A stretch of 64,000 nt of DNA, taken from NCBI RefSeq assembly GCF_014696065.1, contig NZ_JACJPL010000001.1, forward strand, positions 372,001 to 436,000, in the 5' to 3' direction. This DNA comes from Leptolyngbya sp. FACHB-261. GTDB taxonomy: Bacteria; Cyanobacteriota; Cyanobacteriia; FACHB-261. The translations under genes and the position numbers were made by a program. Numbering within the stretch: position 1 is the stretch's first letter; each line of letters begins with the position of its first letter. The notes under the pieces are model-generated. The model saw only the letters and a list, made by a program, of their open reading frames with translations, did not search any database and was not told the origin of the DNA. Below, in pieces: positions 12,217-60,785 of the stretch.

Positions 12217-12228
12217 ATTTTGAGCTTT

Positions 12229-13422: not shown

Positions 13423-13425
13423 AGG

Positions 13426-14298
13426 TTACGGTGCAGCCCGTTTATCTAATTTAGATTGCTGGCGCCGACTCAGGTATAGCCAAGTCAATGGAATTCCAAA
13501 TAGCAAATCAGCTAAGGACACAAGAGCAGATTTTGGACGGCGGTAATATAGCTTACGCAATAGATCAAAAGCATGAAACTTGTAGCTTTTTACTATAAAG
13601 ATAAAATCTCCCTTAGGCTTAAGCACTGTTTTATGCTTGCTAACATGATGAGCCCAGGCAGAACAGCGTTTAGGAATTCGAGTAACTGCGTCTCTTAAGG
13701 AAGTGAGCCGCACAGGATGAAAAACCCGTGCAGTTGAGACAAAAGTAATTGGAGTTATAGATGCTAGACGCAGCTTCAGGTCCTGGTCTTCGTGAGCGGC
13801 AAGGGGGTAACTAGGGTCAAAGCCTCCAACTGCTTCGAACAGAACTCGCTGAACTGCAATGTTAGCAGACCAAAAATAATCCCCGGTCAAGTTGACCGGA
13901 CATTCTGCTAAGTCTTGATTTGGATCTCCCTCTGGACATATTGCACCTTCCAGGGCTAGAGCAGCTCCGTTCAGGCTCTTTGAAAAAGCTTCCAGCCAAG
14001 TCGGTTCTGGTAAGCAATCATCATCAGTAAAGACTAGCCATTTACCTTGAGCGTACTTTGCTCCGTTGTTACGATTAGCAGCTGGCCCTTTGTGTGGACC
14101 CGTAACCCATTTAGCCCAAGGATAACGCTCTTGAATTAAAGCTTCAGCAGTGAAAGCTTGTCCATCATCAGTAACAATGACTTCATAGTAGGCTACTGGC
14201 AAAGTTTGGATCCCTGGCGCGAGACGATCTAGGCACTTGGTCAGTAAATTGTTGCGCTGGTAGGTTGGAATTACTACTGAAAAGAGCAAGCCAGCCAT
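13426..14298 (-). CDS. GT2 family glycosyltransferase
   Basis: 290 residues. The GT-A signature is clear: FSVVIPTYQRNNLLTKCLDRL at the start, VIVTDDG, the NRNNGAKYAQGKWLVF donor loop, and the metal-binding TDDDC near residue 93. PLAAHEDQDLKLRL (about residue 170) supplies the ED catalytic-base region typical of the family, and a short hydrophobic stretch near the C-terminus may give a membrane contact. The ATG overlaps the stop of the upstream gene by one base (TAATG). Inferred to add one residue of the surface polymer; specificity unknown. Confidence 0.87.
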   Translation of the reverse strand: MAGLLFSVVIPTYQRNNLLTKCLDRLAPGIQTLPVAYYEVIVTDDGQAFTAEALIQERYPWAKWVTGPHKGPAANRNNGAKYAQGKWLVFTDDDCLPEPTWLEAFSKSLNGAALALEGAICPEGDPNQDLAECPVNLTGDYFWSANIAVQRVLFEAVGGFDPSYPLAAHEDQDLKLRLASITPITFVSTARVFHPVRLTSLRDAVTRIPKRCSAWAHHVSKHKTVLKPKGDFIFIVKSYKFHAFDLLRKLYYRRPKSALVSLADLLFGIPLTWLYLSRRQQSKLDKRAAP

Positions 14299-15173
14299 TA
14301 TGCTTCCAATAGAGTGTGTAGGGCTCGTTTGAAGCGTCGAGCGATTGTCCGAGCTGAGCGGCTATTTTTGCGCTGCTGTTGACTCCAAGCTTTAACTTGT
14401 TCGTCCCATTCTGCTTTTTCTGCTTGGGTAAGGAAACTGTAGAAAATATCGTTGATTGGACGTGGCCTATCCATTGGTGTCCCAGCCCAATGAATCAGGT
14501 AAGGTTTTCGTTGAAGATCACTCCAGTAGGAATTATACTCACTTGGGTAATCACCGGCCCAAGTAGACTCCATCCTAATAGGAGGTAGCATGAGATTGGT
14601 AACAGAGACATTAGATAAAAACACTAGTAAGTTCAAACCGGGTTGATCAGGCAGTGGAGGCTGAACACAGGTTTTAACATACTCAGGCTGCATCGCTACT
14701 GACTTAAGTTGCTCAACCGAGTAGAGAGCAGAGTCGCAAGCAAACTGGCCCGAATTAAATACGTGCATCTGCCATGTCGTACTCTTTTTAGCAAATATCG
14801 CTTTAGAAGTTTCTGTATAAGTGTGGTTTGGATCGCGCCAGTGGCCACAGGAGGTAATAAATTCCAAATGCGATTCCAACACATCTTCAGGATTCTTCAA
14901 GAAGCAAACATCTGCATCGACAAATTGGTAATTTTCTACTGTTAAGCATTGATATTTACGCAGTGCTCGGTGGGCTTTCTGTTCTTCCAGCCAATCTAAA
15001 ATCTCAGGCATTACCCACCATTTGGAGCCCACTGGAAGTTCAAAAAGGTTGTTGTCATAAGGGATAACCCACAATGGAAGTTGGCAACCGGCTGCTCGTA
15101 AAGAGCGCTCCATTGCCAGGAAACGCAAACGGAATTTTGAATTCGCTAGAGAAATAATTTTGTCAAGTTTCAC
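14298..15173 (-). CDS. Putative GT-A nucleotide-sugar transferase (GT8/GT77-like), unclassified
   Basis: 291 residues, no common annotation recognised. Features that suggest a GT-A transferase are an N-terminal SKFRLRFLAMERSLRAAG segment resembling donor-domain starts, YQFVDADVCFLKNP with a D-A-D (DXD-type) metal motif near residue 87, FNSGQFAC, and a C-terminal LIHWAGTPMDRPRP that resembles the HxxG motif of retaining GT8-type enzymes. The start codon is GTG, in a GTGA overlap with the stop of the upstream gene. The C-terminal 40 residues are strongly basic, possibly a membrane-surface helix. A sugar transferase in this operon is likely; the exact family is uncertain. Confidence 0.6.
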   Translation of the reverse strand: MKLDKIISLANSKFRLRFLAMERSLRAAGCQLPLWVIPYDNNLFELPVGSKWWVMPEILDWLEEQKAHRALRKYQCLTVENYQFVDADVCFLKNPEDVLESHLEFITSCGHWRDPNHTYTETSKAIFAKKSTTWQMHVFNSGQFACDSALYSVEQLKSVAMQPEYVKTCVQPPLPDQPGLNLLVFLSNVSVTNLMLPPIRMESTWAGDYPSEYNSYWSDLQRKPYLIHWAGTPMDRPRPINDIFYSFLTQAEKAEWDEQVKAWSQQQRKNSRSARTIARRFKRALHTLLEA

Positions 15174-16291
15174 GAAACAATTCCTGCACAGGTTTTGATC
15201 ATTTCTAGGTAGTGTGGGAGTAGTTTCTCCCAGCTAAAGCGCTCATAGACACTTTTTTGACGCGAATAGCGCTTAGATTCTTGCTGATCTTCTAGCAACT
15301 GTTCTGAAATTGCTTGGGCTAAGTTTTCTGGCAAACTCAAGTCACGCAGACAGCCGTCCTCTCCCAAAACGAAACGTGTAATCTCACAATCGTGAGCTAT
15401 ACAAGGTAAACCATAGGACATTGCCTCTAAAAACACACGGCCAAATCCCTCTCCAAGAGAAGCAAGGATAAACAGGTCTGAAGCTCGATAATAATCAGCA
15501 ATTTGGTCGTACCGGACAGTTCTGACGTCAAAATTAGGTTTGTCTAACAGCCTATGCCCTAACTGTATTAGCTCAGGCGATTCTGTTTCCAACTGACCTA
15601 ATAAGAGAAGGTAAGGACGCGGCTCAGGTAATGAGGCAACTTCATGAATGACATAATCCATTCTCTTATGAGATTTGTTAATCGCACCTACCGAGAGGAG
15701 CACTGAGCGATTTTCAGGTAGCCTAAGCTCACCGCGTAAAGCGCATAGCTCAGCTGAATTCAGGGGCTTGTTAGGGGAATTTTTGATTCCGTAGGGGAGA
15801 AGGCTCTGCTTCTCTCGCGGTACTCCTATATCCAATGCCGCTTGTAAATGCGTAGGTGCAACTTGCTGAGCGTGGTCCATACGATGGATGTAGGATGGTG
15901 ATAAGGGGCCACCATTTGAGTATAGGAGCTTAAATTTTTGTCGAGCCAACCGCCGCCAATGCCAGAGTAGATTGCCTAGAGCACCATCACTGAAATAAAT
16001 AACATGGGGCCTACAGTCATAAATATGAGGTAGCAAACTCAAGAAAAATGAGCTTTGTTCAATAAAATGTCCATCTCTTCCAGCTGCTTTACCAAGCTGG
16101 GTAGCGGCCCAGCCATCCCGAGCTAGATTCCATAAAGCGACCTCTTTTGCTCCCAACTCGCCAGCTCCCTTAAAAAGGGTAATATCAAGAGATCCATCTG
16201 CCTGCAGCGCATCGAAACACTCCTGTGTAAAAGATTCAAATCCTCGCTTAACCTGACCTAGCCCTGGACAGGCTAGAAAAACTCGAATCAT
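15170..16291 (-). CDS. GT4 family glycosyltransferase
   Basis: 373 residues, GT-B. The N-terminal domain begins IRVFLACPGLGQVKRGFESF, an unusual acceptor loop that recalls cyanobacterial transferases named CapM/RfaB-like. The C-terminal domain begins VLLSVGAINKSHKRMDYVI and has LGEGFGRVFLEAMSYGLPCI with a full EX7E. The four-base overlap with the downstream GTG start and the 52-bp gap upstream keep it in the operon. Retaining sugar transfer is established for the family; donor and acceptor here are unknown. Confidence 0.85.
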   Translation of the reverse strand: MIRVFLACPGLGQVKRGFESFTQECFDALQADGSLDITLFKGAGELGAKEVALWNLARDGWAATQLGKAAGRDGHFIEQSSFFLSLLPHIYDCRPHVIYFSDGALGNLLWHWRRLARQKFKLLYSNGGPLSPSYIHRMDHAQQVAPTHLQAALDIGVPREKQSLLPYGIKNSPNKPLNSAELCALRGELRLPENRSVLLSVGAINKSHKRMDYVIHEVASLPEPRPYLLLLGQLETESPELIQLGHRLLDKPNFDVRTVRYDQIADYYRASDLFILASLGEGFGRVFLEAMSYGLPCIAHDCEITRFVLGEDGCLRDLSLPENLAQAISEQLLEDQQESKRYSRQKSVYERFSWEKLLPHYLEMIKTCAGIVS

Positions 16292-16343
16292 TTATAATTC
16301 TCGTTGCTAACGAAGAGGAGTGAGCAATAGAGATCTTGCATTT

Positions 16344-17366
16344 CTATCGAAATGAAGGAACTATTCGCTGAGCCAAAGCGCGTTTGATCAAACCAAGAAA
16401 GCGACGGTCCCTTAGTCCTTGGACTGGAAAATCAATCACAGCCTTCAACAAGTCACCAAGAAGGGTTTCTCTTGGCTTTAGCGACAACTCTTCCAATCTG
16501 TTGGAGTAGGCAATGAGGCTATGCAGCTCTCTTCGCTCATTTGGAGACAGAAAGGCTGCATACTCTTGGGCGATTTTGATCGCCTCTATTTTGACTGCTA
16601 TTCCAGCGCGTCTAGTTTTAGCATCATCATGGAATCGGTAGAAACAGATCGGCTCTTCATGGTTATAAACTGTCGGTTTGGCAAGAGCTATTCTGGCGTA
16701 CCAGTCCAAGTCCATACAGTAGTGCAAATCTTCCTGCAAGAAACCAATCTTTTCAGCAAAGCCTCTGGCGATGAATACAGACTGAGAAGGAATAATATAG
16801 TCTGTGCTATAGAAGAAACGTAGCAAACTCTTCAGTTTTAGATCTCTAACCCCAGTGCTATAGCTGATGGTAGCCTCTTCTAGAGAAAAGCCACTGTAAG
16901 CCTTCCAGCCAAAGATAAAATCAGCAATCGCCACATTTGAGCCAGCAAAAAGTGAAAGAGCTTTGGGCAGATAGCAGTCGCTAGAGTTCATCCAGGCAAT
17001 GTAATCCCCAGTACATCTCTCAAATCCCTTGTTGATAGCATGGGATTGGCCTCGGTCAGGTTCACTGACCCAATAGCTTAACCAAGGCGAATACTTCTTG
17101 ACGATTTCGGTAGAGTTGTCTGTACTGCCTCCATCAATAATGATGTACTCCAGGTTGGGATATCCTTGCAATAGAACAGAACGAATTGCTTCTTCTAAAA
17201 ACTGATCTTGATTGTAGCTAGGAGTAACGATACTAACACGAGGCCAGTCGGAACCATCTGGCCTTTTTTCTGGCAGTTTTGGGCTCTGCTCCGTCCACGG
17301 CCACCCAGCTTTACCTTCTAGCGGTGGCGGTAAATCTTTAATATCTAGTACGTTACCAACAGTCAT
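16344..17366 (-). CDS. GT2 family glycosyltransferase
   Basis: 340 residues with a 45-residue N-terminal extension before the GT-A domain. The domain carries PRVSIVTPSYNQDQFLEEAI, IIIDGGSTDNSTEIV, the SEPDRGQSHAINKGF donor loop and IAWMNSSDCYLP, where the DXD-like metal site is Ser-Ser-Asp. This pattern matches the large WcaA-like group found in O-antigen and capsule loci. Its ATG lies in an ATGA overlap with the stop of the upstream GT4 gene, so translation is probably coupled. The closest relative in the window by eye is the GT2 gene at 19793-20728. Confidence 0.87.
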   Translation of the reverse strand: MTVGNVLDIKDLPPPLEGKAGWPWTEQSPKLPEKRPDGSDWPRVSIVTPSYNQDQFLEEAIRSVLLQGYPNLEYIIIDGGSTDNSTEIVKKYSPWLSYWVSEPDRGQSHAINKGFERCTGDYIAWMNSSDCYLPKALSLFAGSNVAIADFIFGWKAYSGFSLEEATISYSTGVRDLKLKSLLRFFYSTDYIIPSQSVFIARGFAEKIGFLQEDLHYCMDLDWYARIALAKPTVYNHEEPICFYRFHDDAKTRRAGIAVKIEAIKIAQEYAAFLSPNERRELHSLIAYSNRLEELSLKPRETLLGDLLKAVIDFPVQGLRDRRFLGLIKRALAQRIVPSFR

Positions 17367-18463
17367 TTGTTACTTATTGCCTGATAAACAGCGAGAGTTT
17401 GAGCAGCGGTTTTCTCCCAACTAAACATTGTTGCTCTTTTCTCGCCCTTTGCAATTAGCTCATCGCGTTTCGTGGGGTTTTCAGATAAATCGATCAAAAT
17501 ATCAGCTAGGTCAGTTATTGAGTTGGGACCAAACAATATACCAGCATCACCGACGACCTCAGGAATACTGGAGCAGTTAGAAGCGACAACAGCTGTTCTG
17601 CATGACATAGCTTCTAAAGGCGGTATGCCAAAGCCTTCATACAGGGAAGGGTACACTAAAGCAAGACTACAGCGATAGAGCTTAGCCAAGTGTCTATCAT
17701 CAGCATAATTGTAGTGCTCGATAGCATGGGCCAAGTTTAGGGTGGCAACAAGTTGTTTCTCTTCATCATTAAACGCTGGACCGACCACACATAGCATCAG
17801 CTCAGGCCGAATACTTATAGCCTTTGCAAGGGCCATGAGTATGCGATCGAAATTTTTGTAGTTATATCGGCTACCAACATAAAGATAGTAGGGCCGAGTT
17901 GGCACAGCCTCAGTGCCGTAGGCCAGACTTACATTCATATCTGTAGCAAGATACGTGACTGTCACTCTGTCTTCTAACGCAGGGTATCGCTCAAGCAAGT
18001 CTTTTTTCGTATTTTCGGAGATACAGATAATTGCTTGTGCCGCTAGGACTGCTTGGCGTTTCTCCTCGATTTGGTGACCGTCAGGATCCGTTTGCTTTGC
18101 GAAAAGCTCGTGAATCATGTCATAAACAGTCACCACAATAGGGCGTTTGACTGTATCGAAGTTTTGTTGAGTTAGAAGCGAGTAGTAAGTTGGATGGAAA
18201 ACCTCGTATCTTCCAAAATTGGTTACACTTCTAAAGTAGTACTTCTCAAGCCAGTACGAGAGGCGACCAGGACGAAAGCCAAATCTTTTGTAGAAGAAAA
18301 CCTTGAGGTTTGGATGAGTTGGATAGTTAACCTCACGGTTCTGACAGGTCGTTAGAAGTGGAGTGTAGTCCTCTGGCAACCTACTAATTAGGTTGGCAAA
18401 GTACCGATTAACCCCTCCAGCAAATTGGATTGCGTAAATTTGACCGTCATAAAGAATACGCAT
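17363..18463 (-). CDS. GT4 glycosyltransferase, mannosyltransferase-type
   Basis: 366 residues. It begins MRILYDGQIYAIQFAGGVNRY with the GG(V/I) loop typical of the mannosyltransferase-like group (WbaZ/MtfB type), then ICISENTKKDLL and YLYVGSRYNYKNF. The C-terminal domain has YEGFGIPPLEAMSCRTAVV and SSIPEVVGDAGILF, an EX7E followed by the conserved donor loop. The adjacent gene at 18484-19770 has almost the same motif set and is probably a paralogue. The four-base overlap with the next gene and a 20-bp gap upstream put it inside the operon. A GDP-mannose-type donor is typical of the group but not proven here. Confidence 0.87.
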   Translation of the reverse strand: MRILYDGQIYAIQFAGGVNRYFANLISRLPEDYTPLLTTCQNREVNYPTHPNLKVFFYKRFGFRPGRLSYWLEKYYFRSVTNFGRYEVFHPTYYSLLTQQNFDTVKRPIVVTVYDMIHELFAKQTDPDGHQIEEKRQAVLAAQAIICISENTKKDLLERYPALEDRVTVTYLATDMNVSLAYGTEAVPTRPYYLYVGSRYNYKNFDRILMALAKAISIRPELMLCVVGPAFNDEEKQLVATLNLAHAIEHYNYADDRHLAKLYRCSLALVYPSLYEGFGIPPLEAMSCRTAVVASNCSSIPEVVGDAGILFGPNSITDLADILIDLSENPTKRDELIAKGEKRATMFSWEKTAAQTLAVYQAISNK

Positions 18464-18483
18464 TTGGGTAGTTCTTGTTTGGG

Positions 18484-19770
18484 CTAACTACTCAGTGCTA
18501 CCTTATAAGCCGCAATAGTTTCCTGAGTGCATCTTTTCCAGCTAAATTTCTTTGCTCGCTCTAGAGATTTTTTAGCCATAGATGCTCTGAGTGAGGAGTT
18601 GTTATAAACTTCAAGCAAGCTGTGGCACAAGGCGTCAGTGTCAGTTGGGGAAACCATGATACCTGCATCTCCAACTACTTCGGGTAAAGAAGAGGTATTT
18701 GAGGTGATGACCGGGATACCGCACTGCATTGCTTCTAAGGGAGGTAAGCCGAATCCCTCGTAAAAGGAAGGATAGACAAAAGCGAGAGCACCACTGTAGA
18801 GCGCTGCCAGGTCCTCATCTGCAACATAACCTGTTACAAAAATTCGGTCTTTCAGCTGGCTAGAACCCGCGATTTCACTAAAAATCTTGTCATAGTTCCA
18901 GCCTTTTGTACCCACGAGGACAAGGTTCAAATCTTTGATATTCTCTTGCAGAACTAGCTTTGTGAAAGACCGAATTGTGTGATCAATATTTTTGCGGGGC
19001 TCTAGAGTACTTAAGCTCAAGATGTAAGGAGTCTCTGGAATACCGTATCTCTTTAAAGAGATAAGAATCTGTTGGGAATCAGGGCAGGGATAAAAAAGAT
19101 CAGAGGCAGCTAAATGAGTCACGAATACTTTAGAGGGATCAATATCCTCACGATAATTACATAAATCCTGTTTAGTTGCATGGGAAATGCAAGTGACATA
19201 GCCGTCCGAATCTAGGCTACTTAAAATTCTTGTAAAAAGGCTTTCTACATCAGATTCAAAGAAATTTGGATACAGAACAGGAATCATATCGCAAATCGTC
19301 AAAAACTTCTTTGCTTGTTTTGTCTCTCTTATTTGCTTAGACAAAGGATAGAAAGGAGAATGAATTACATCCGCCCGATTTAGTTCTTCAGGGTGGATTC
19401 CCAAAGAGTATGGTGCAAGCAAGTTACTAGCAGAATGTGTAAACCTCCTTGCCACCCTTAGAGAAATCTTTTTAGGTAACGGCGCCTTGCCACCATTAAT
19501 TTCAGAATTGAAACTTGAAACGCAACCATCTAAAAAATTTTTGATTCTCGTAAGTCTCGGTAGAGAAAGAGAAATTTTTTTAAGTTTAGGGTTGGTTCTC
19601 AAATAGTCTAGAGAGGCAGCTAAATCACTGTCAGCACAGAAAGACAAGTCTAATTCCTTCGAATCAGCCAATCCATAAGCGATGTTCTCAGCAACTCGAA
19701 AGACTCCTGTGCGAGCACGTGGATTGAGATGGCCGGTTCCAAGAACTGATATATCGTAGATAATCTTCAT
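18484..19770 (-). CDS. GT4 glycosyltransferase, mannosyltransferase-type
   Basis: 428 residues, longer than its neighbour at 17363-18463 by an insertion in the N-terminal domain (about residues 50-130). It begins MKIIYDISVLGTGHLNPRAR and has the group landmarks CDMIPVLYP, CISHATKQDL and ILSLSTLEPRKNIDHTIRSF, then YEGFGLPPLEAMQCGIPVI with EX7E and SSLPEVVGDAGIMV. The shared C-terminal motifs with the downstream gene imply a duplication that changed the acceptor half. It lies 22 bp after the upstream GT2 gene. Local composition looks more AT-rich than the flanking conserved genes. Confidence 0.87.
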   Translation of the reverse strand: MKIIYDISVLGTGHLNPRARTGVFRVAENIAYGLADSKELDLSFCADSDLAASLDYLRTNPKLKKISLSLPRLTRIKNFLDGCVSSFNSEINGGKAPLPKKISLRVARRFTHSASNLLAPYSLGIHPEELNRADVIHSPFYPLSKQIRETKQAKKFLTICDMIPVLYPNFFESDVESLFTRILSSLDSDGYVTCISHATKQDLCNYREDIDPSKVFVTHLAASDLFYPCPDSQQILISLKRYGIPETPYILSLSTLEPRKNIDHTIRSFTKLVLQENIKDLNLVLVGTKGWNYDKIFSEIAGSSQLKDRIFVTGYVADEDLAALYSGALAFVYPSFYEGFGLPPLEAMQCGIPVITSNTSSLPEVVGDAGIMVSPTDTDALCHSLLEVYNNSSLRASMAKKSLERAKKFSWKRCTQETIAAYKVALSS

Positions 19771-19792
19771 GCTTTAAGTAGAAGAAACTACT

Positions 19793-20728
19793 TTAAGTAA
19801 AGTAGATGCGGATGCTTTCAACAGTATCTTGCCTAGTTCTCTTTGCTCTTCGATTATTAAACCACCATTTTATAAGAGAAAGAAAAATCTTCGGCGGAAC
19901 ATATTTTCGCCAGTACAAAAACGCAAGTAAGCTAGCCCATAGAAATACATCTGCAATGTGTTTGCCTTGATTCTGATCAGTTTGTTCGAGAGCTGTTATA
20001 TCTTGAGACTTAATATAGGCATAGCCTAAAATCCATCTATCAGGAACACTATTGAATTTTTGATGTAGCATATCGTTAATTTCGTGATGGACTGCTTCTC
20101 TTTGGCTAAGAGTTTTATTACTTGCATATAATCGCGATCCGGCAAGTTTTTTTCTAAGGTAGTAGAATTGGAAGTACTGACCGTAGCGAAGCCATAACTC
20201 ATAATCCATACAATATTGCAATGTGCTATCTAAAGTGCCTAGGTTCTCAACTAAACTTCTCCGAAAAAACACTGCCGGCTGGCACAAATAGCAAATTTCT
20301 ACTAAACGCTTATAGTCCCAAGGCTCAGTTGGATAAGCCCCTATAATCTGACCTTGCTCATCAATATGATCAGCGTCTCCGTATAAAGCTTGGACATCTG
20401 GATTTTTCTCAAATATCTCCCTTACTTCTTCAAAAGTATTTGGGTAGTAAACATCGTCAGAATTTATCCACGCGATGATATCCCCTGCCGTCATCAAGAT
20501 TCCTTTATTAACCGCATCAGCTTGGCCCTTATCGGGTTCTGATATCCACTTTATATGTTGATTGTAATGTTGCAGCACCCTTATTGTTTCATCTTTACTA
20601 CCCCCATCGCAAACTATGTACTCATATTCCTCTTTGGGAAGACGTTGATCTAAAACGCTCTGTATGGTTCTCTCAATGAATTGTCCTTGACAAAAAGAGG
20701 GGGTTATAACGCTGAATCGTAATCTCAT
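19793..20728 (-). CDS. GT2 family glycosyltransferase
   Basis: 311 residues. The WcaA-like GT-A domain is plain: FSVITPSFCQGQFIERTIQSV, YIVCDGGSKDETIRVL, SEPDKGQADAVNKGI and IAWINSDDVYYPNTF, with Ser-Asp-Asp as the metal site. YCMDYELWLRYGQYF marks the acceptor/catalytic region. The last 60 residues contain a hydrophobic helix and a basic tail, suggesting membrane association. It is 22 bp upstream of the next gene and 39 bp after the FkbM gene, so it is part of the same transcription unit. Sugar specificity unknown. Confidence 0.87.
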   Translation of the reverse strand: MRLRFSVITPSFCQGQFIERTIQSVLDQRLPKEEYEYIVCDGGSKDETIRVLQHYNQHIKWISEPDKGQADAVNKGILMTAGDIIAWINSDDVYYPNTFEEVREIFEKNPDVQALYGDADHIDEQGQIIGAYPTEPWDYKRLVEICYLCQPAVFFRRSLVENLGTLDSTLQYCMDYELWLRYGQYFQFYYLRKKLAGSRLYASNKTLSQREAVHHEINDMLHQKFNSVPDRWILGYAYIKSQDITALEQTDQNQGKHIADVFLWASLLAFLYWRKYVPPKIFLSLIKWWFNNRRAKRTRQDTVESIRIYFT

Positions 20729-20767
20729 ACATTTTTTCGATCGAGAGCACAGACCACCTTCAAAGTC

Positions 20768-21562
20768 TCAGTAATCTAACGCCCTGCTGCGAGTAAAAAT
20801 TCCATCGACTTGTAGTATTCGTCTATCATCCGGATTTTGAAGCTGATCGTAATTACCTCGATACTGAAATCCCAACTTCGTTATGAGCCGATACATTTCA
20901 TCAAAAAGCAATTGATCCTTATATAGCTTTTCAATAGATAATTCAATAATGAGAGTGCTTGCTCGATTAATTACACTCATGCCCCCTGAAATAACTCTGT
21001 CTTCAAATCCCTGTACATCTATTTTGACCAAAATTGGTTGAGGCAGGTCTAGACTACTTGCAATGTCATCTAACCGAAGAATCTTAACTTTTTGAGGTAT
21101 TACCTCTTTGGTATAGGGAAAGCATTCTTTATGTAAGTTTTCCATAGGCAGAAAAGAAGAGGATGGCGAGAATTCATTGGAATAAATATCTATTTCTCCC
21201 GACTCGTCTCCTAGAGCCACATTAAATACTCTGAACTGTGGAATGCCTTTTGCTTTAGCGAACAACTCCTCATAGCAATCTTTCAGAGGCTCAAATGAAT
21301 AGATTAATGCTTCAGGTAATGCTTCATGAATCTCTTGAGCGAATTGTCCTATGTTTGCTCCAATGTCGATTACTGTCTTGACCCCAGTAGACTTTAACCA
21401 TAGCTTTCTCTGCTCTGCTTCGAGCGTCAATCTATGCTGCTCAACGATTTGTTTATGTTGTTCGGCAATTTGCCTTTTTTGCTCCTCTGTTGGAAGGCGG
21501 TGCAACTCAAGGCCTAACCAATTCAAAGATTTTTGAATGAGAACTTTAGGTACCATCTTCAT
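20768..21562 (-). CDS. FkbM family SAM-dependent methyltransferase
   Basis: 264 residues. After a charged, helical N-terminal region (about residues 15-50) the class I methyltransferase core begins with TVIDIGANIGQFAQEI (SAM-binding motif I), then SFEPLKDCYEELF, and ILVKIDVQGFEDRVISG, the KIDVQG(F/Y)E signature of the FkbM family. These enzymes O-methylate sugars and other small molecules; between polysaccharide genes, O-methylation of the chain (possibly its terminus) is the likely role. Terminal methylation is a known chain-length signal in ABC-exported O antigens, and the next upstream gene is the exporter ATPase, which makes that idea worth testing. Length is normal for the family. Confidence 0.88.
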   Translation of the reverse strand: MKMVPKVLIQKSLNWLGLELHRLPTEEQKRQIAEQHKQIVEQHRLTLEAEQRKLWLKSTGVKTVIDIGANIGQFAQEIHEALPEALIYSFEPLKDCYEELFAKAKGIPQFRVFNVALGDESGEIDIYSNEFSPSSSFLPMENLHKECFPYTKEVIPQKVKILRLDDIASSLDLPQPILVKIDVQGFEDRVISGGMSVINRASTLIIELSIEKLYKDQLLFDEMYRLITKLGFQYRGNYDQLQNPDDRRILQVDGIFTRSRALDY

Positions 21563-21589
21563 TTGAAACTTGTAAACCTGTCCAATCGT

Positions 21590-22891
21590 TTAACTCTTTG
21601 CAAGCCTTCTAAATTCATTGTCCTCAATTTCACTCGAATCTGTATCATTGAGAGTAAGTGGCTCCTTCAAGCTTCTTAGGGTAAGCTCTAAGGAACCATA
21701 TCTCCACGACTGAGGCAAAACTCGCTTAGCAGTTCTTGAAGGTGTGCGAACAACCTCAAACTGAAGGCAATCTTCAACGCGATCGTAGTATCTCACATCG
21801 GGCAAAGTGAGATCTAAACTGATCGAATACGTACCAACTGCAAGCTGCTCTGTTGACAGAGTAAAAGAAATTCGATTTAGTCCAGACTTAAGCTCAACAA
21901 GTTTAGTTGGATCTAATGCTCCAAAGGAACCGTACCCTACAGGACTTCCCATACCATCTGAGAGGCGAAGGTCCAAGCTGACTTGTTTTGGCTCATTAGT
22001 AAACACTTCAACATCAATTCGAACCTTCGAGTCCAACAATTGGTTTATAAACTCTAACTGGCCTAGGACTAAAGTTGGATTACCGTCTACCTGTCTCTGA
22101 CGAGCGAAAGAGTTAGCAGAGGCATTTTGCAAATAGTTTTGTATTGCAGAAGTGGAGGTTTGATCTGATAGTAAAAGACCTTTCTGTAGAACTAGACAAC
22201 GCTCACACAACGTTTGGATCACACTCACATTGTGGCTGACAAACAGAACTGTTCGTCCCCCACTGCGAACTTCTTTCATCTTTCCTAAGCACTTCTTCTG
22301 AAAATCAGAATCGCCAACTGCTAGCACTTCATCTACGATCAAAATTTCTGGTTCTAGATGAGCTGCCACTCCAAAGGCAAGACGAACGTACATCCCAGAG
22401 GAATAATACTTAACCGGCGTATCTAAAAACTTCTCAACTTCTGCAAACGCCACAATTTCGTCCAGCTTGCGATCAATCTCCCACTTGCGCATGCCCAGAA
22501 TTGTGCCGTTCAGGTAGATATTTTCTCTCCCAGTCAGGTCTGGATGAAAGCCTGTGCCGACTTCTAACAGAGAGCCTACCCGCCCTCGGATTTCGGCAAA
22601 ACCACTAGTCGGCTCAGTAATGCGCGAGAGGATCTTCAGAAGCGTACTTTTGCCCGCACCATTGCGGCCAATAATGCCAACGATTTCGCCTTGCTTGACT
22701 TCAAACGAAACATCCTTCAGCGCCCAATACACCTCTTCTGGTGAGGGTTCACTAAAGGCCCGTTTTAGATAAGAAAACGGTGCAGCGAGTGAACTCACCA
22801 GAGCTTCCCGTTTGCCCTTGGGGATTTTCTGGGCTGCGCCAATGCGGTAGCGCTTGCTCAGATTTTCAACTCGAATAACCGTATCTGACAT
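21590..22891 (-). CDS. wzt: Polysaccharide ABC exporter ATP-binding subunit, Wzt type
   Basis: 433 residues from the ATG at 22891; the frame is open to 23047, but the extra N-terminus overlaps the permease gene and has no family character. The nucleotide-binding domain has GRNGAGKST (about residues 75-83), YYSSGMYVRLAF (signature, about 162-173) and PEILIVDEVLAVGD (Walker B). Residues beyond about 265 form an additional beta-rich domain, as in Wzt proteins whose C-terminal domain recognises the finished glycan. It works with the permease 24 bp upstream to move a lipid-linked polysaccharide to the periplasm. The C-terminal domain probably decides which polymer is exported. Confidence 0.92.
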   Translation of the reverse strand: MSDTVIRVENLSKRYRIGAAQKIPKGKREALVSSLAAPFSYLKRAFSEPSPEEVYWALKDVSFEVKQGEIVGIIGRNGAGKSTLLKILSRITEPTSGFAEIRGRVGSLLEVGTGFHPDLTGRENIYLNGTILGMRKWEIDRKLDEIVAFAEVEKFLDTPVKYYSSGMYVRLAFGVAAHLEPEILIVDEVLAVGDSDFQKKCLGKMKEVRSGGRTVLFVSHNVSVIQTLCERCLVLQKGLLLSDQTSTSAIQNYLQNASANSFARQRQVDGNPTLVLGQLEFINQLLDSKVRIDVEVFTNEPKQVSLDLRLSDGMGSPVGYGSFGALDPTKLVELKSGLNRISFTLSTEQLAVGTYSISLDLTLPDVRYYDRVEDCLQFEVVRTPSRTAKRVLPQSWRYGSLELTLRSLKEPLTLNDTDSSEIEDNEFRRLAKS

Positions 22892-22914
22892 ACTGCTCTG
22901 GTACTTAATTCCCC

Positions 22915-23796
22915 TTAAACCACATCCACAATCGTTCGTTCGGTGCGACGGAAGAAATATGCTCCAGTCACCAGCAACACCAAGACAAACACTGTGGAAA
23001 TCAATACCGCTAACCTTGGTGGCTCGCCTACCCCTAGCAGCGCCCAACGAAAGCCCTCAATCGCGCCCGTGGTTGGATTCAACCGATAGAGAAACTGCCA
23101 CCGCTCTGGAATCACATTGGTTGAGTAAGCCACAGGCGTCGCATACATCCATACCCGTAGCAAGTAGCCCATCATAAAACCGACATCACGGAAATACACG
23201 GTCAGTGCTGCCGACCACAAGCCCACACCCAATGCCGTCGCTGCCATCAGTGCTAAGAACAGTGGCATAGTCAACGCCCAAGGCGTTAATTGAATGCCAT
23301 AAAACACCATCATGCCCAGCAGAATAATCAGCGATGCGCCGAAATCAATGAGCCCTGACAACACACTGACCAGCGGCACCACTAATCTGGGGAAATACAC
23401 CTTAGAAATCAATTGGGCATTGCTCAGCAAACAATTAGCACTGCTACTCGTTGCCCGCATAAAGAAGTTCCACGGCAGTAGCCCACTGTAGGAAAAAAGT
23501 GGGTAGGGCAAGCCATCTGAAGGCAACTTGGCAACCACGCCAAAGATCAGGCTGAAAATCACCATATCCACGAGGGGCTGAAGCACAATCCACAGCGGTC
23601 CCAGGGCCATCTGCCGATAGCGTCCCTTCACCTCCCGCCACAGCAGAAAATAGATCAGATCTCGATAGTCCCAGAGTTCTTTGAGTTGAAGTGATCCCCA
23701 ACCCTGAGAAGCCTCGATTCGCAAAACCTGAGTGGTTGCTTCCCGCGACTTCGTCCCTCTTTTGATTCTCTGTTCTGCTGCTTCAGACAATTTCAA
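22915..23796 (-). CDS. wzm: Polysaccharide ABC exporter permease, Wzm type
   Basis: 293 residues with an amphipathic N-terminal region and about six membrane helices. The segment DYRDLIYFLLWREVKGRYRQ followed by LGPLWIVLQPLVDMVIFSLIF is diagnostic of ABC-2 permeases for O antigen and teichoic acid, and PVAYSTNVIPERWQ, RLNPTTGAIEGFRWALLG and the C-terminal basic end agree. It starts with TTG (23796) with GAGAGTG upstream; no in-frame ATG precedes the core. It is the first gene of the close-packed set; 254 bp separate it from the wzc-like gene, so a promoter in that gap may drive the whole downstream cluster. Confidence 0.92.
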   Translation of the reverse strand: MKLSEAAEQRIKRGTKSREATTQVLRIEASQGWGSLQLKELWDYRDLIYFLLWREVKGRYRQMALGPLWIVLQPLVDMVIFSLIFGVVAKLPSDGLPYPLFSYSGLLPWNFFMRATSSSANCLLSNAQLISKVYFPRLVVPLVSVLSGLIDFGASLIILLGMMVFYGIQLTPWALTMPLFLALMAATALGVGLWSAALTVYFRDVGFMMGYLLRVWMYATPVAYSTNVIPERWQFLYRLNPTTGAIEGFRWALLGVGEPPRLAVLISTVFVLVLLVTGAYFFRRTERTIVDVV

Positions 23797-24050
23797 AACA
23801 CTCTCTATAAAACTGGTTCAAATGAATCCCACGACAAAGCCCCCGCAGAAACCTATCAGGGGACAACATTGTTGTGCAGCGCATCTACTGTTGTCAGCGC
23901 TTCATTGTAGTCATTGATTACTGGTTTTCCCTGCCAGAGCTCTAGGCCCAGATCTAAGCCCTCCATAAGGGAGCGAGGGCCCGTCTGCTAGGGAGATATT
24001 ATTATGCTGATACATGGCTAATCTAGGCACAGCCGTAACAAGGGCTTTGA

Positions 24051-53977: not shown

Positions 53978-54041
53978 GTCAGCCCAGCCTCTAACTCAGC
54001 TGCCTCCAACTTAGAAGGAAGCCTGTTAGAGGCTCTCTCTG

Positions 54042-54063
54042 CACTCTCCCCCTCTGGAGAGTG
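54042..54063 (+). terminator. Hairpin after rodA
   Basis: CACTCTCC (54042-54049), six-base loop, GGAGAGTG (54056-54063): a perfect 8-bp stem about 65 bp after the rodA stop, without a T-run. Plausible end of the min-rodA transcript, not certain. Confidence 0.45.
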
Positions 54064-54252
54064 TGGTATCTATGTTTTGCAGCGCCACGCTGGGCTGTAT
54101 GAGTAGCTCGGTTGGCATCATAGATAAGTTGCAGTGGTCGAGCCCACCAAGATTAGGGGCATTGGGTGCGGCTCGGTTTTGATCATTTTTGCCTGGAGGC
54201 CACCTTCTCTCAAATTGGGCCAGTGGGCCTGCGCAAACAGAACCGGCAAGCC

Positions 54253-57200
54253 ATGAAACTGGACCGCTCCCTGCTTCGTATCCCCTCTCCTAAAGCCGCC
54301 TTTCGAACTGCTAGTGCTCAAGGTCGGGCAAAACGATGGCTGCAATGGCTGAATCTGCGCCCCGAAGAGAGCGAACGGACCCTCTTGATGTTCGGTTTCT
54401 ACACTGCCACCTCGATCGGTGTGTTGTGGCTAGAGGCCAGTAGTGTTGCGCTGTTTCTGGCAGATTATGGAGCGCAAACCCTACCGCTGATTTACATTGC
54501 CGGGGCGCTAATCGCCACTGCCTTGGGGTGGCTGTACGCCCAGTTGCAGCGGTCATTACCCTTGCGTCAGTTATTGGTCGGCGTCGCCTTTGCCCTGGCA
54601 ATGCCGCTGTTTCTGTTTCGGCTGGGCCTGGGAATCGCCAGTTGGACCGTGGTGGTCGTGTTCATCATTCGACTGTGGTTAGAGGCAGTCTACGTCCTCA
54701 ACGACCTCAATAACTCGATTGCCGCCAATCAGCTTTTCAATATCCGTGAACTTAAGCGCACCTTTCCCCTGATCAGCAGCGGTGTACTAGTCGCAGACGT
54801 TCTAAGCGGCTTCTCTTTGCCCCTGGTTCTGCATTGGGTCGGCATCCAGAATGTGCTGCTGCTGGCCTGCGTCATGATGGGCATTGGAGCTGTGCTGCTC
54901 CTGCGACTCTGCCAGCGCTACCGCAGCAGCTTTCCAGAGGCCCCTCGCCGCGCCGCAGCCTCTGAGGCCGAAGAGCCAGCCACCCGACGACTGCAAGGAC
55001 CGTTGAGGCGCTACGCCCGCCTGCTATTTGGGTTCTTTGTGCTGTCCCAGGGTCTGTACTTGCTGGTCGATTTCCAGTTCCTCAATCAGTTGCAGCAAAC
55101 TCTGGGGCAAGAAGAGCAGATCGCGCAGTTCTTGGGACTTTTCGGTGGCGTTTTAGGGCTCCTAGAGCTGACCACGCAGTGGTTTATTGCCAGCCGTTTG
55201 ATCGAACGGTTGGGCGTGTTCATCGTGATGATGGTGCTACCTGGCAGCGTCCTGCTAATTCTGACCGCGGTAATCGCAGGCGCAGGCCTAGTAGACCTGT
55301 TCCAGGGGCTGGTTGCTCTTAAGTTTTGCGACGAGTTGTTCCGCTATACCCTGCTGGCAGGTGCTGTGCCGGTCCTGTTTCAAGCGATCCCCGAACGGGT
55401 GCAGGCTCAGGTACAAGCGCTGGTGCGGGGGGTCGCCGACCCCCTGGCAACGGGCCTTGCTGGCGCCTCAATAGGAGGGCTGGTGTGGCTCTTGGCCCGT
55501 TGGAACTGGAGTCAGCAAGCCACTGGGCGCTTTTTTGCCTTGCTGGTTGTAGCGGTTGCAGTGACCTGGCTAGCGGTAATTTGGTTGCTGCGTAATGACT
55601 ATGTGCGCCTGCTGGTGCTGAGTGCTGAGCGAGGACAGCTCAGTGGCATCCAAGCCGACTTGCGCTCGCTCAAACGGGCGTTAGTCGAAGCCTTAGCGCG
55701 GCCTGGAACGGAGGCAGACAAGCGCTCTTGCATCGAACTGCTCACGCAAATCGACGCCAATAGTATCAGCGAGGTGCTGGCTCCCCGCTTGCCAGAATTG
55801 CCACCTCGATTGCAGCAGCTAAGTTTAGAACTAATGCTTGCTCATCCCAATCCTCGCAGTCTTAGCGCTAACCGAGAGCAAGTTCGGAGGCTCAAGGACC
55901 AGCTTGATGCCAACCAACAGCCCGAGGTGCTAGCGGCAGCATTGCGCTACTTATGGCTCACAGAAATCAATCCAGATCTGCGCCCCCTCGAAATCCATCT
56001 CAAGCCGACCGAGAACCCAGCGATTCGCAGCACGGTTGCGTCTCTGATGCTACGGAGCGGCACAGCTGAGCAGATTAGTCTGGGCACACAGACACTGCGA
56101 CAAATGCTGACTCACGCTTCTGAGCAGGAGCGGCTTTTGGCTTGCCGAGTCCTAGGGGATGCTGCTGTTTTTCAGCCTCTAAAGGCTACAGTGCCAAAAC
56201 TGCTCAAAGACCCTTCTGTGAGCGTGCGTTCTGCCCTGCTCGAAGCTATCGCGGATGCCCATGCGCAGGACTACTATCCTTCCTTGCTGCGGGGCCTCTC
56301 CTACACTTCTACGCAGTCCGCGGCGCGGGTTGGTATGGTGCGGCTTGGCGATGAAATCTTACCGGCCCTGAGCCAGTTTGCTGAGGACCGACGACTCGCA
56401 GAGCCAATTCGCCTTCGAGCTTGGGCAGTGATTGGTGAGCTAGATACAGCCGAGGCAGTTGCTTATCTGACCGAGCGGCTGCGCGTCGCTTGGGGAGAAT
56501 ACGGCTGCTTGCGCCTGCGCCGGACCCTTTTGAAAATCTTGCTGCGCATTCCTCGGGAGGCAGGCATTGATGGTGCCGTTGAGCGGCTAGGCCGTCGAGG
56601 CATTGAGGCACTGATCGACCAAGAGCTATTGTTGGTCACCCAGATTTATGCCGCCAACCTAGACTTGGGCTTGAGCCATGCTGCCCCACAGGATCCCACT
56701 GAGCAGGGGCCTGCTGATCTACTAGCTCGGGCATTAGATGGGATTTTGAGCGACAGCCAGGAACGGCTATTTCTGACACTGCGGCTACTGTATCCCGCTC
56801 GGGCAATTCAGGCGGCAGCGTTCGATATCCAATCAACGTCGGGGGCTGGGCTGGCCCGAGGGCTGGAGATTTTGGACAATACGCTGGATCTGCCTCGCAA
56901 ACGGGCGTTACTCACTGTCTTTGACCGTTGCTCAGAAGGCGAGAAACTGGATAGCTTGCGCGATTTGGCTCCCTACCGTAGCCTGGCTGCCCCAGAACGT
57001 CTGCGCCAACTAATTGAGTTGCGGGCCTTCTTATCAGATTGGGCGGTAGCCTGTTGCTTTCACCTAGCTCGAGACCAACGCTGGACTGTACCCGTGAAGT
57101 CTACGCTAGCCTGTTTACGCCATCCCACAGGCTATGTGCGCGAAGCTGTACTGAGCTATCTAGCCATGGCCAGTCCACGCACCCTGCAAGCCCTCCTGCC

Positions 57201-57324
57201 ACGCCTCTATCCAGATCCAGATCAGATTGTCAATGCCCAAGTTCAAAGTTTAATGAATTCCCCTCACCTGGCTGCGCCCAACAACGGCCAGACCGGAGAA
57301 GCCCCTCATGTTAACCAGCGTTGA
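54253..57324 (+). CDS. ATP/ADP-translocase-like (NTT) membrane protein fused to a helical-repeat domain
   Basis: About 1,023 residues. Residues about 35-445 are a 10-12-helix transporter whose segments (RTLLMFGFYTATSIGVLWLE, FIIRLWLEAVYVLNDLNNSI, NIRELKRTFPLISSGVLVAD, FCDELFRYTLLAGAVPVLFQ) follow the Tlc/NTT nucleotide-transporter pattern. From about 445 to the end it is a large soluble, alpha-helical, Leu/Arg-rich region with repeated short helical units (e.g. KDPSVSVRSALLEAIADA, RHPTGYVREAVLSYLA) typical of HEAT-like solenoids. Such fusions are known in cyanobacteria but not understood. The frame opens at GTG (54166); the ATG at 54253 is preferred because the sequence before it lacks family character. 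It overlaps the cNMP-binding gene by 17 bases. Confidence 0.82.
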   Translation: MKLDRSLLRIPSPKAAFRTASAQGRAKRWLQWLNLRPEESERTLLMFGFYTATSIGVLWLEASSVALFLADYGAQTLPLIYIAGALIATALGWLYAQLQRSLPLRQLLVGVAFALAMPLFLFRLGLGIASWTVVVVFIIRLWLEAVYVLNDLNNSIAANQLFNIRELKRTFPLISSGVLVADVLSGFSLPLVLHWVGIQNVLLLACVMMGIGAVLLLRLCQRYRSSFPEAPRRAAASEAEEPATRRLQGPLRRYARLLFGFFVLSQGLYLLVDFQFLNQLQQTLGQEEQIAQFLGLFGGVLGLLELTTQWFIASRLIERLGVFIVMMVLPGSVLLILTAVIAGAGLVDLFQGLVALKFCDELFRYTLLAGAVPVLFQAIPERVQAQVQALVRGVADPLATGLAGASIGGLVWLLARWNWSQQATGRFFALLVVAVAVTWLAVIWLLRNDYVRLLVLSAERGQLSGIQADLRSLKRALVEALARPGTEADKRSCIELLTQIDANSISEVLAPRLPELPPRLQQLSLELMLAHPNPRSLSANREQVRRLKDQLDANQQPEVLAAALRYLWLTEINPDLRPLEIHLKPTENPAIRSTVASLMLRSGTAEQISLGTQTLRQMLTHASEQERLLACRVLGDAAVFQPLKATVPKLLKDPSVSVRSALLEAIADAHAQDYYPSLLRGLSYTSTQSAARVGMVRLGDEILPALSQFAEDRRLAEPIRLRAWAVIGELDTAEAVAYLTERLRVAWGEYGCLRLRRTLLKILLRIPREAGIDGAVERLGRRGIEALIDQELLLVTQIYAANLDLGLSHAAPQDPTEQGPADLLARALDGILSDSQERLFLTLRLLYPARAIQAAAFDIQSTSGAGLARGLEILDNTLDLPRKRALLTVFDRCSEGEKLDSLRDLAPYRSLAAPERLRQLIELRAFLSDWAVACCFHLARDQRWTVPVKSTLACLRHPTGYVREAVLSYLAMASPRTLQALLPRLYPDPDQIVNAQVQSLMNSPHLAAPNNGQTGEAPHVNQR

Positions 57325-57784
57325 TCGCCTACTCTTCGTCCGCCAAGTGCCTGTTTTTCAGGAATTACGCGATGACTTTCTGGTTCGACTAGCCTCGATC
57401 ATGGACGAAGTCACCTATCCACCCCAGCACACGATTTTTACTGAGGGCCAGGAAGGCCAAGCACTATTTATCGTAGTTCAGGGCCAAGTTCGGGTACATC
57501 TGCGGCAACAGGAGCTAGCCCAACTTGCTCAGGGAGCCTGCTTTGGCGAGATGTCCCTGTTTGACTCCGAACCCCGCTCAGCCTCAGTCACCACGCTGGA
57601 ATCCTGCACTTGCCTAGTGTTGACGCAGCAACAGCTCTACGAGGCCATTGACGAAACACCAGGCATTGCAGTCAACATTATTCGCTTGCTCTCACGCCGC
57701 ATTCGTGACCTCAACCAGAAGCTAAACCCTGTACTACAGGGCCAAGTCACACAGGATGTTGGCACGGAAGTGGCTGCCCGCTAG
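57308..57784 (+). CDS. Cyclic-nucleotide-binding domain protein
   Basis: 158 residues, essentially a stand-alone cNMP-binding domain. The phosphate-binding cassette is ACFGEMSLFDSEPRSASVTTLE with the Arg that contacts the cyclic phosphate, and the preceding TIFTEGQEGQALFIVVQGQV is the barrel start. A helical C-terminus follows and there is no helix-turn-helix, so it is not a Crp-type regulator. The ATG lies inside the end of the transporter gene, 17 bases before its stop, giving a shared transcript and possible coupling. It may sense cAMP or cGMP, or bind the helical-repeat domain to control transport; this is inference. Confidence 0.87.
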   Translation: MLTSVDRLLFVRQVPVFQELRDDFLVRLASIMDEVTYPPQHTIFTEGQEGQALFIVVQGQVRVHLRQQELAQLAQGACFGEMSLFDSEPRSASVTTLESCTCLVLTQQQLYEAIDETPGIAVNIIRLLSRRIRDLNQKLNPVLQGQVTQDVGTEVAAR

Positions 57785-57790
57785 TGCCTA

Positions 57791-57811
57791 CAGACTTCGG
57801 TTCTAAGTCTG
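57791..57811 (+). terminator. Hairpin after the cNMP-binding gene
   Basis: CAGACTT (57791-57797), loop CGGTTCT, AAGTCTG (57805-57811), then ATTTTATG. A 7-bp stem plus T-run seven bases after the stop codon: a reasonable intrinsic terminator. Confidence 0.6.
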
Positions 57812-58404: not shown

Positions 58405-58884
58405 CTAGCCTTTGATGAACCGGCTCAAGCGCTGAACCAGACCATCAAGCCCGCCGCCACCGACCTCCCGTTCAGCCTCAGTCTCGATCGCTTTCACCAT
58501 GTCGGCTGGCAGTCCCAATAACCGAACCAGGCGCTGATAGGCAACTTCCTCATCGGGGTTAACCTTCGGCTCGTCTGGGGTGCGGGCGCTGGCTCGAATT
58601 ACCTCGTAGCCTAACTTCAGCACAATTTGACGGTCTTCTAGGTTAGGGATCAGAGGAATCAGCTCATCTAGCGGAATGTTCTGATCTAGATAATCCTGAA
58701 GCTCTTGCTTCAACTTAGCCTGCTGCGTTTCAGAAGTCGCGAACAATTTTGCGAAGCGGTCGATCAGCAAACGCACTTCATCTGGCTCTAGCTGTCCATC
58801 AGACCAGGCCATTGCGGTTACAGCCCGCAGTAAATTCATCTGGCGAGGCGTGATCGGTGGCGGTGGCGGTGGTTGAATGCTCAT
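58405..58884 (-). CDS. TerB-like tellurite-resistance-domain protein
   Basis: About 159 residues, soluble. The helical TerB-like core has PRQMNLLRAVTAMAWSDGQ, LEPDEVRLLIDRF, and then an acidic helix-rich C-terminal part (EPKVNPDEEVAYQRLV, VRLLGLPADMVKAIETEA). A Pro-run (about residues 4-9) precedes it. The AWSDG...DEVR pattern is typical of TerB domains, for which metal binding (Asp/Glu) and membrane-associated stress roles have been proposed. No ter-gene neighbours are present. The listed frame begins with TTG; the ATG at 58884 is preferred. Gene-specific function unknown. Confidence 0.8.
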   Translation of the reverse strand: MSIQPPPPPPITPRQMNLLRAVTAMAWSDGQLEPDEVRLLIDRFAKLFATSETQQAKLKQELQDYLDQNIPLDELIPLIPNLEDRQIVLKLGYEVIRASARTPDEPKVNPDEEVAYQRLVRLLGLPADMVKAIETEAEREVGGGGLDGLVQRLSRFIKG

Positions 58885-59147
58885 AATTGCCAACTGAGTA
58901 GAGAATCACCATCGGCTTTACCCATACCATAAGTCGCCCAGGGCCACGACAGATGCATAGGTTTGCTACAGCTTTCTCAGGTTTCTGCGCTGTTCACTCT
59001 TGGTTTTGAGCTTGATTCTGAGTTTTGTCTTAAGTTGCTCTAACCAGCTTTCGCTTAAGTTTTTGCCGGGCTCCACTCAGTTTGGTCCGGCTCTGTCCTG
59101 CGGTGGAAAGCAGCGGAGGCGACAGCGTTTTAGGGTTGAGATAACGC

Positions 59148-60785
59148 ATGATGTCCGATGTGAACAACACCTCTGCTCAGACCGAATCCCTTATTCGCCC
59201 CATTGCTGCCTCTGCCCTGGCTGGCTTCGCCTTCGTTGGCGACAGTGTTGTGGCGCTCGACCGCTATTCTGGCTCCCTAATCTCGATTGAGCCCGCCACA
59301 GGAGCAACCACAGTTCTCAACCCCTACCCGCAACAACGGCTATCGGGTGCAAGGGGACTGGCTTACAGTGGCGGTCTGGTCTGGATTAGTCAAGAGCGCA
59401 CTGTTTATCAAAGCAGCCTCACTAAAAAAGGGCGGCTGGGCCCCCTAGAACCTCTGCTCAGCTTGCCCGAGCCTGTAGAGGGTGTTGCTGTCGATGGTGA
59501 CCGCATCTATCTAACCTGTCGCTACAGCAGTCGCATTCTGATTTTTGACCGAGCCCTAGGCAAACAGGTCGGCGAGTTTTATGCCCCTGGTGTTGGCGAA
59601 GAAAATCTCTACGTCCACAACCACAGCCTCTATGGTCCTGCCCTTTGGGTCTGTGACAGCCTAGAGCAAACGGTGTACTGCCTGGATCTGCAGACAGGCG
59701 ACCTCCGCTTCAACCTACTAACGCCCTTTGAGCAACCTTCTGGCCTGGCGTTCCTGGGGGATGAGCTTTACGTCGCATATGCAGGCGATGAGCGCTACAT
59801 TCGCGAGAGCCCTAACGATGAAGATCCGTTTCAGGTGGCAGTCCGAGATCAGACTTTTATTCACTCACTCTCCTTCAAGCACTTTGTTGAAGAGCGCTAT
59901 ACCTTATCTGGTGGCTATCGAGTTGAGCTGACCTACCTCGAAGAAATAGATCCTTTAGAGCCAGTCACTCTGGAGGATCTAACCTGGAAAATTGCCCTGC
60001 CCGACAATACCCACCGGCAGAAGGTTTGTCAGGTTGAGCCCGTGGGTATGCCTTTCACTGAGGAAGTACACGGCACCCAACGCATGGCTGTGTTCCACTT
60101 TGATCGCCTAGAACCAGGTGAGGTGCGGCTATTCGGCTGGCGAGCGGTATTAGAGGTGCGAGGCATTAAGTACAACCTCAGATTCGAAGATGTTGAGGAT
60201 GCGGGTGAGTTGCCGGCCGAACTGCGAGAGCAATATCTGGTCGATGACGATGACCTAGCAATGGACACCGAAAGTGTTCGCCAAGCTGCAGTGGAAGCCA
60301 TTGGCAGCGAAACCAACCTACTACGGCAGATGCTAGGCATCCGCAATTACGTATACGACCATCTCAGCTATCGAGTCACGCCCTACATTGACGCACCCGA
60401 TTCGGTTTTAGAGCGGGGCAGCGGCTCTTGCGGTGAGTATGTCGGTGTTCTGCTGGCTCTGGCCCGACTGAACGGCATCGCCTGTCGTACCGTAGGCCGC
60501 TATAAGTGTCCACCCCATCCTGATTTGCGCGGCGTGCCCCTGATCCCGGAGTACAACCACGTCTGGATCGAGTTCTATATTCCTGATTTCGGCTGGGTAC
60601 CAATGGAGTCTAACCCGGACGACACTGGCGATAGTCCTTATCCCCGTCGCTTCTTTATGGGTCTACCCTGGCTCCATGTCGAAATTGGGCGGGGCATTTC
60701 TTTCGAGACGATTAGTGCACGTGATTATTCGATTGGCGAACTTGCCATCAACCACGTTCGTTTCCGCGTGCTGGACGAGCTGTAG
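59148..60785 (+). CDS. Beta-propeller-like N-terminal domain fused to transglutaminase-like domain
   Basis: 545 residues. Residues about 20-225 are a repeated four-strand pattern (VVALDRYSGSLISIEPATGA, LVWISQERTVYQSSL, DRIYLTCRYSSRILIFDRAL, LWVCDSLEQTVYCLDLQTG) as in NHL/PQQ-type propellers. A beta-sandwich-like middle (about 235-350) follows. Residues about 385-500 are a transglutaminase core with GSGSCGEYVGVLLALAR (catalytic Cys near 427), IPEYNHVWIEFYIP (His near 469) and MESNPDD (Asp near 490). No signal peptide, so it is predicted cytoplasmic. Possible activities are transglutamination or proteolysis/deamidation. The unit ends at a strong terminator (60814-60841). The fusion is uncommon. 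Confidence 0.83.
   Translation: MMSDVNNTSAQTESLIRPIAASALAGFAFVGDSVVALDRYSGSLISIEPATGATTVLNPYPQQRLSGARGLAYSGGLVWISQERTVYQSSLTKKGRLGPLEPLLSLPEPVEGVAVDGDRIYLTCRYSSRILIFDRALGKQVGEFYAPGVGEENLYVHNHSLYGPALWVCDSLEQTVYCLDLQTGDLRFNLLTPFEQPSGLAFLGDELYVAYAGDERYIRESPNDEDPFQVAVRDQTFIHSLSFKHFVEERYTLSGGYRVELTYLEEIDPLEPVTLEDLTWKIALPDNTHRQKVCQVEPVGMPFTEEVHGTQRMAVFHFDRLEPGEVRLFGWRAVLEVRGIKYNLRFEDVEDAGELPAELREQYLVDDDDLAMDTESVRQAAVEAIGSETNLLRQMLGIRNYVYDHLSYRVTPYIDAPDSVLERGSGSCGEYVGVLLALARLNGIACRTVGRYKCPPHPDLRGVPLIPEYNHVWIEFYIPDFGWVPMESNPDDTGDSPYPRRFFMGLPWLHVEIGRGISFETISARDYSIGELAINHVRFRVLDEL

Follow-up and report, generated by a model that had tools for sequence, protein, structure and literature searches.

The NTT-HEAT gene and the gene for a stand-alone cyclic-nucleotide (cNMP)-binding protein, hereafter the sensor, form a near-obligate pair in cyanobacteria, occurring together far beyond chance, and we see an even chance that the two encode one membrane complex, a cAMP-gated carrier whose substrate is something other than ATP/ADP. 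The architecture was already described in 2017, together with a proposal of cAMP control, and the locus described here is a further member of that group. New here are the near-obligate pairing, the invariant phosphate-binding cassette, the conserved N-terminal helices of the sensor, the loss of the nucleotide-binding lysines from the carrier, and the loss of the cassette arginine in a clade of fused paralogues. The advance is evidence that the two genes cannot be separated functionally and that the carrier is unlikely to move ATP/ADP.

Layout and surroundings of the gene pair

The window (the whole stretch of DNA analysed, 64,000 nucleotides) lies within a cyanobacterial genome of 6.9 Mb. The NTT-HEAT gene (54253..57324, + strand) is an ATG-start open reading frame of 1023 aa, characterized through its AF2 fold and VIA structural comparison; an alternative in-frame GTG is present at 54166, yet conservation begins only near residue 30. 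The sensor gene (57308..57784, +) encodes 158 aa, and its putative ribosome-binding site, GGAG, is located within the NTT-HEAT gene, 9 nt ahead of the ATG. The two genes share 17 bp (57308..57324, +), just as the earlier note on this DNA had described. As a conserved translational-coupling device this overlap was rejected: it is not generally conserved, most linked relatives having intergenic distances of 3-1087 bp and the full range running from -17 to 1087 bp. Because the gene 3' of the pair is on the opposite strand, NTT-HEAT and the sensor likely form a two-gene unit. A hairpin between rodA and the pair (54039..54066, +) is a possible terminator or boundary and another, terminator-like with a T-rich tail, follows the sensor gene (57791..57811, +), both being only suggestive, as the hairpin scan yielded no more matches than shuffled sequence.

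Upstream of the pair, the window carries minC-minD-minE-rodA, with rodA in the position held elsewhere by infC. The usual order in relatives is infC (named from sequence), NTT-HEAT, sensor, with infC directly upstream of NTT-HEAT in most of them (L101-L139); in family f7, infC is still with NTT-HEAT and the sensor gene has relocated. Several further features of the surroundings were recorded. A TerB-like protein is encoded near the pair (58405-58893, -), its PF05099/DUF533 match falling just below the cut-off, and a CNBD-TerB-like fusion in another genome (G213, L080) is a possible second link between sensor and TerB domains. A 545-aa protein with NHL-repeat and transglutaminase-core regions is encoded at 59148-60785 (+). 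Moreover, GC content drops to 0.40-0.49 at positions 8000-24000 of the window, compared with 0.51-0.58 in the rest, and this stretch may have been acquired or be distinct in some other way.

Membrane half, solenoid and substrate residues of the carrier

The AF2 model of NTT-HEAT, built from 48 sequences (pLDDT 86.7), comprises twelve transmembrane (TM) helices followed by about thirty shorter helices reaching residue 1002. The former make up a 12-TM MFS/NTT half (residues 37-459; 54361..55629, +), and the latter a HEAT-repeat solenoid (residues 470-1002; 55660..57258, +). Single-sequence Pfam searching detects HEAT repeats only (HEAT_2), and in the Pfam/NCBIfam single-sequence search PF03219 (TLC) gave no match in the window protein at E<=10; the same family matches 19/48 orthologues at E<=1. 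A profile of the orthologues' membrane half matched exactly two proteins of solved structure, AtNTT1 (7e-10) and Chlamydia pneumoniae NTT1 (CpNTT1; 3e-7), and hhalign gave 95.9% for NTT-HEAT against AtNTT1. In VIA alignment, the carrier matched AtNTT1 (9j3l) with Z 36.0 and rmsd 2.9 over 409 residues and CpNTT1 with Z 32.5; overall, the AtNTT1/CpNTT1 matches scored 36.0, 35.0 and 32.5, versus 26.6 or less for the next MFS carriers. Given these profile and fold matches, the predicted membrane half clearly has the NTT fold. The Tlc/NTT-type half joined to a HEAT-like solenoid that the earlier note had proposed thus holds for both parts, with the solenoid shortened from about 580 residues to about 535. 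Two variant loci belong here. One (L063, in G284) is a broken NTT-HEAT of 895 aa without its end, whose missing C-terminal 117 residues lie 0.5 Mb away (G284:C1:2572497-2572853). The other (L160; G011:C1:898405-899700) is an NTT-like protein of 530 aa that stands alone and has no HEAT repeats, resembling the reverted form in Major et al.

In AtNTT1, ADP binding probably depends on K155, ATP binding on K527 and translocation on E245 (PMC3306366); with E385 the conserved charges number four (PMC10654386). Three alignments (hmmsearch, hhalign and joint MAFFT) agree on the columns of K155, E385 and K527, with hmmsearch covering K155 via the Chlamydia chain only. The positions refer to an AtNTT1 sequence that matches the PDB chain across the compared stretch, its numbering being off by one. 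The column of the ADP-binding lysine, K155, is occupied by Tyr81 (54493..54495, +), a tyrosine in 57/57 orthologues, and that of the ATP-binding lysine, K527, by Thr400 (55450..55452, +), where orthologues have T (38), S (9), C (4) and others, neither K nor R being among the residues listed. At the E385 column stands Asp273 (55069..55071, +), with D or E in 57/57, and the E245 column falls on D151 or E144 of the carrier, varying with the alignment. Likewise, the fused paralogues sampled from cyanobacteria and Sericytochromatia have Y/F at K155, L/V/Q at K527 and an acid at E385. Replacement of both lysines suggests that the carrier probably moves something other than ATP/ADP; the NTT-HEAT clade appears to have retained the carrier machinery and not the nucleotide clamp. 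The label 'nucleotide-translocase-like', given to this locus at first reading, therefore stands for the fold and is weakened where function is concerned, the two nucleotide-binding lysines of AtNTT1 being absent.

Loss of the substrate lysines would also suit a non-transporting receptor or scaffold, in which the NTT half would anchor the protein in the membrane or sense a solute and the HEAT arm would present the cNMP protein or other partners; the large conserved solenoid and the retention of a regulatory partner in nearly all good assemblies point the same way. We nevertheless consider this unlikely, because many TM-half residues are invariant, among them the ANQLFNIRE-KR motif between TM4 and TM5, W59 and Q388, and because mean identity among orthologues is similar in the TM half (53%) and the solenoid (55%), as one would expect of a carrier core that remains in use.

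The sensor and its co-inheritance with the carrier

The sensor matches PF00027 (7e-22) and nothing else credible in Pfam; it terminates after helix C, and the Pfam search found no helix-turn-helix (HTH) match in it. Its AF2 model (pLDDT 82.1) shows N-terminal helices, a beta-roll, helix B (107-116) and a 29-residue helix C (119-147), and VIA places it at Z 16-19 to PKG, CRP and HCN/CNG domains. The phosphate-binding cassette FGEMSLFDSEPRSA spans residues 79-92 (57542..57583, +), with Arg90 at 57575-57577, and its FGE...RSA residues (F79, G80, E81, R90, S91, A92) are invariant in 57/57 sensors. The initial description of a free cyclic-nucleotide-binding domain with no DNA-binding part is thereby borne out, and the arginine, whose absence from relatives would have spoken against the earlier note's reading of a docked sensor, is present in every sensor compared. 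Mean pairwise identity within the sensor is 84% in the N-terminal helices, 84% in the cassette, 65% in the beta-roll and 76% in helices B-C; conservation of the N-terminal helices equal to that of the cassette makes them a candidate partner surface. Class III cyclases (PF00211) are encoded in 58/58 pair-bearing genomes, with five matches in the host genome. This is a check passed and not strong support, as such cyclases are common in cyanobacteria.

Fused NTT-HEAT-cNBD paralogues exist in 11 cyanobacteria and also in Sericytochromatia; a contig search with two of the Sericytochromatia fusions as queries returned only those two. The cyanobacterial fusions (L070-L072, L074, L147-L153) have degenerate phosphate-binding cassettes: the arginine is lost in 10/11 and kept in L147. 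Of the readable Sericytochromatia fusions, 4/4 keep it. The missing arginine of the cyanobacterial fusions points to the split pair as the cNMP-competent form in these cyanobacteria.

Among 292 genomes of the phylum, the 58 that have NTT-HEAT (E<1e-180) are precisely those that have the sensor (E<1e-45). Among 388 genomes of the class, with NTT-HEAT taken at E<1e-100 and counts made by hand from tables, NTT-HEAT is present in 208 and the sensor in 205: 198 have both, 10 NTT-HEAT only, 7 the sensor only and 173 neither (phi 0.91). The two surveys overlap, and their Fisher P values ignore phylogeny, which inflates them. All 10 genomes with NTT-HEAT only are assemblies of at least 370 contigs, and 6/7 with the sensor only belong to one genus; in a tree that included two members of this genus, their protein is a diverged paralogue grouping with a CNBD-TerB protein. 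A true sensor without NTT-HEAT in genus f18 g25 was rejected on the tree, where it looks like a diverged paralogue. Set aside as well was the mirror-tree correlation (r 0.89), a value explained by shared species history.

Within the 58 genomes, the genes lie within 1.1 kb of each other in 33, 2.6 kb apart in one, 10-12 kb apart in two, and are unlinked in 22. The unlinked pairs come mostly from one family (f7, which would be Nostocaceae-like by gene content), and both genes are kept even when megabases apart. Conversely, both are absent together within genera g14 and g18, and in G022 all that is left of NTT-HEAT is a 62-residue relic, the sensor being missing. The pairing that the earlier note had proposed to look for by genome survey is thus conserved, also without linkage. 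In G482, of the same class as the window, a 1132-aa open reading frame joins NTT-HEAT and sensor in-frame, although the assembly is fragmented and 90%-complete, so that a one-base error may lie behind the fusion; in its sister G446 the genes are separate and overlap by 17 bp, as they do in the window.

Co-inheritance is also expected of two proteins of the same pathway that never touch, and the pair could be co-expressed and physically independent, with the sensor acting on another target within a shared physiological programme such as motility or cell differentiation. Conservation is higher in the sensor than in the carrier (mean identity 72% versus 53%), so that the sensor could have further partners, and in Nostocaceae-like genomes its gene lies beside cobyrinate-synthase-like and UPF0182-like genes. 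This reading is quite unlikely, since the two genes are kept together even when unlinked, are lost together, and have repeatedly been fused to encode a single polypeptide.

As for distribution, hetR, a marker of filamentous lineages, was found (PF03574) in 36/42 pair-bearing versus 11/36 pair-lacking genomes, in a hand-chosen sample where the association is confounded by descent. The pair thus occurs mostly in hetR-bearing lineages, in line with the section III-V distribution of the 2017 paper. Furthermore, Anabaena alr2986 ('HEAT repeat-containing PBS lyase'), which is listed as filament-only and adjoins a HetR-bound site (PMC2821919, PMC4192349), could be an NTT-HEAT gene.

A proposed cNMP-gated carrier and known systems

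In the proposed complex, the NTT-fold half would be an MFS-type carrier of 12 helices, a number that would leave the HEAT solenoid, at the C-terminus, on the cytoplasmic side. The sensor would be a receptor for cAMP (less likely cGMP), comparable to the N-terminal half of a CRP-like protein without the DNA-binding domain, and would dock on the solenoid, probably via its strongly conserved N-terminal helices. A ligand-driven shift of the sensor's B/C helices might then be relayed through the solenoid, opening or closing the carrier. What the analysis shows directly is co-inheritance, two predicted folds, an intact cassette, the absence of two nucleotide-binding lysines and the presence of cyclases; the complex itself, its ligand and gating, the topology and the substrate are inferred. 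More tentatively, and with rather less than even confidence, we suggest a cNMP-gated secondary carrier of filamentous-type cyanobacteria in which a HEAT-bound cAMP receptor controls an NTT-fold carrier for a non-nucleotide solute, with a sister clade in which fusion of the sensor was followed by loss of cNMP binding. Cyclic nucleotides gate channels, kinases and transcription factors, and to our knowledge an MFS-type carrier gated by cNMP has yet to be established; the carrier-sensor pair, widespread and near-obligate in cyanobacteria, offers a defined system for testing one.

Major, Embley & Williams (2017) reported NTT-HEAT genes in cyanobacteria that have a cNBD either downstream or in fusion, with linkage in 'some cases' and a distribution mainly in section III-V, and they proposed, without a functional test, cAMP control of ATP uptake (PMC5381601). 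The main text makes no mention of substrate residues, of co-retention without linkage or of arginine loss in the fused clade (PMC5381601), and in the literature searched we found no functional study of any NTT-HEAT protein. An ATP/ADP (or other nucleotide) carrier tuned to energy status by cAMP, as in that published proposal (PMC5381601), has in its favour that AtNTT1 and CpNTT1 are the best fold matches, exceeding other MFS proteins by 6-9 Z units, and that the acid at the E385 column is kept, but it is decidedly improbable, as K155 and K527, needed in AtNTT1 (PMC3306366), are absent in the NTT-HEAT proteins examined and the host organisms are free-living and produce their own ATP. Annotation of NTT-HEAT as a nucleotide transporter is thus unsupported at the known binding residues, as are, there, the ideas resting on it, such as ATP sharing with heterocysts and a link to plastid ATP transport.

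Returning to the cAMP-gated carrier for another substrate, its parts can be set against three groups of known systems. The locus belongs to the set of Major et al., with an NTT half, a C-terminal HEAT region and a cNBD gene directly downstream, the alternative in that clade being a fused cNBD; architecture, gene order and phylum are the same, and the architecture shows no difference. With AtNTT1 and CpNTT1 (PDB 9j3l, 9j3n), the carrier has in common its membrane-half fold (VIA Z 36.0, 32.5) and the acid at E385, and differs from them in the replacement of K155 and K527, a HEAT extension of about 535 residues, a cNMP partner, and an identity of 14-16%. Finally, the sensor shares the cNMP fold, an intact cassette and a long C helix with CRP/FNR, the PKG/PKA regulatory domains and the CNBDs of CNG/HCN channels, whereas, unlike these, it is a free-standing protein of 158 aa with no HTH, kinase or channel and with strongly conserved N-terminal helices.
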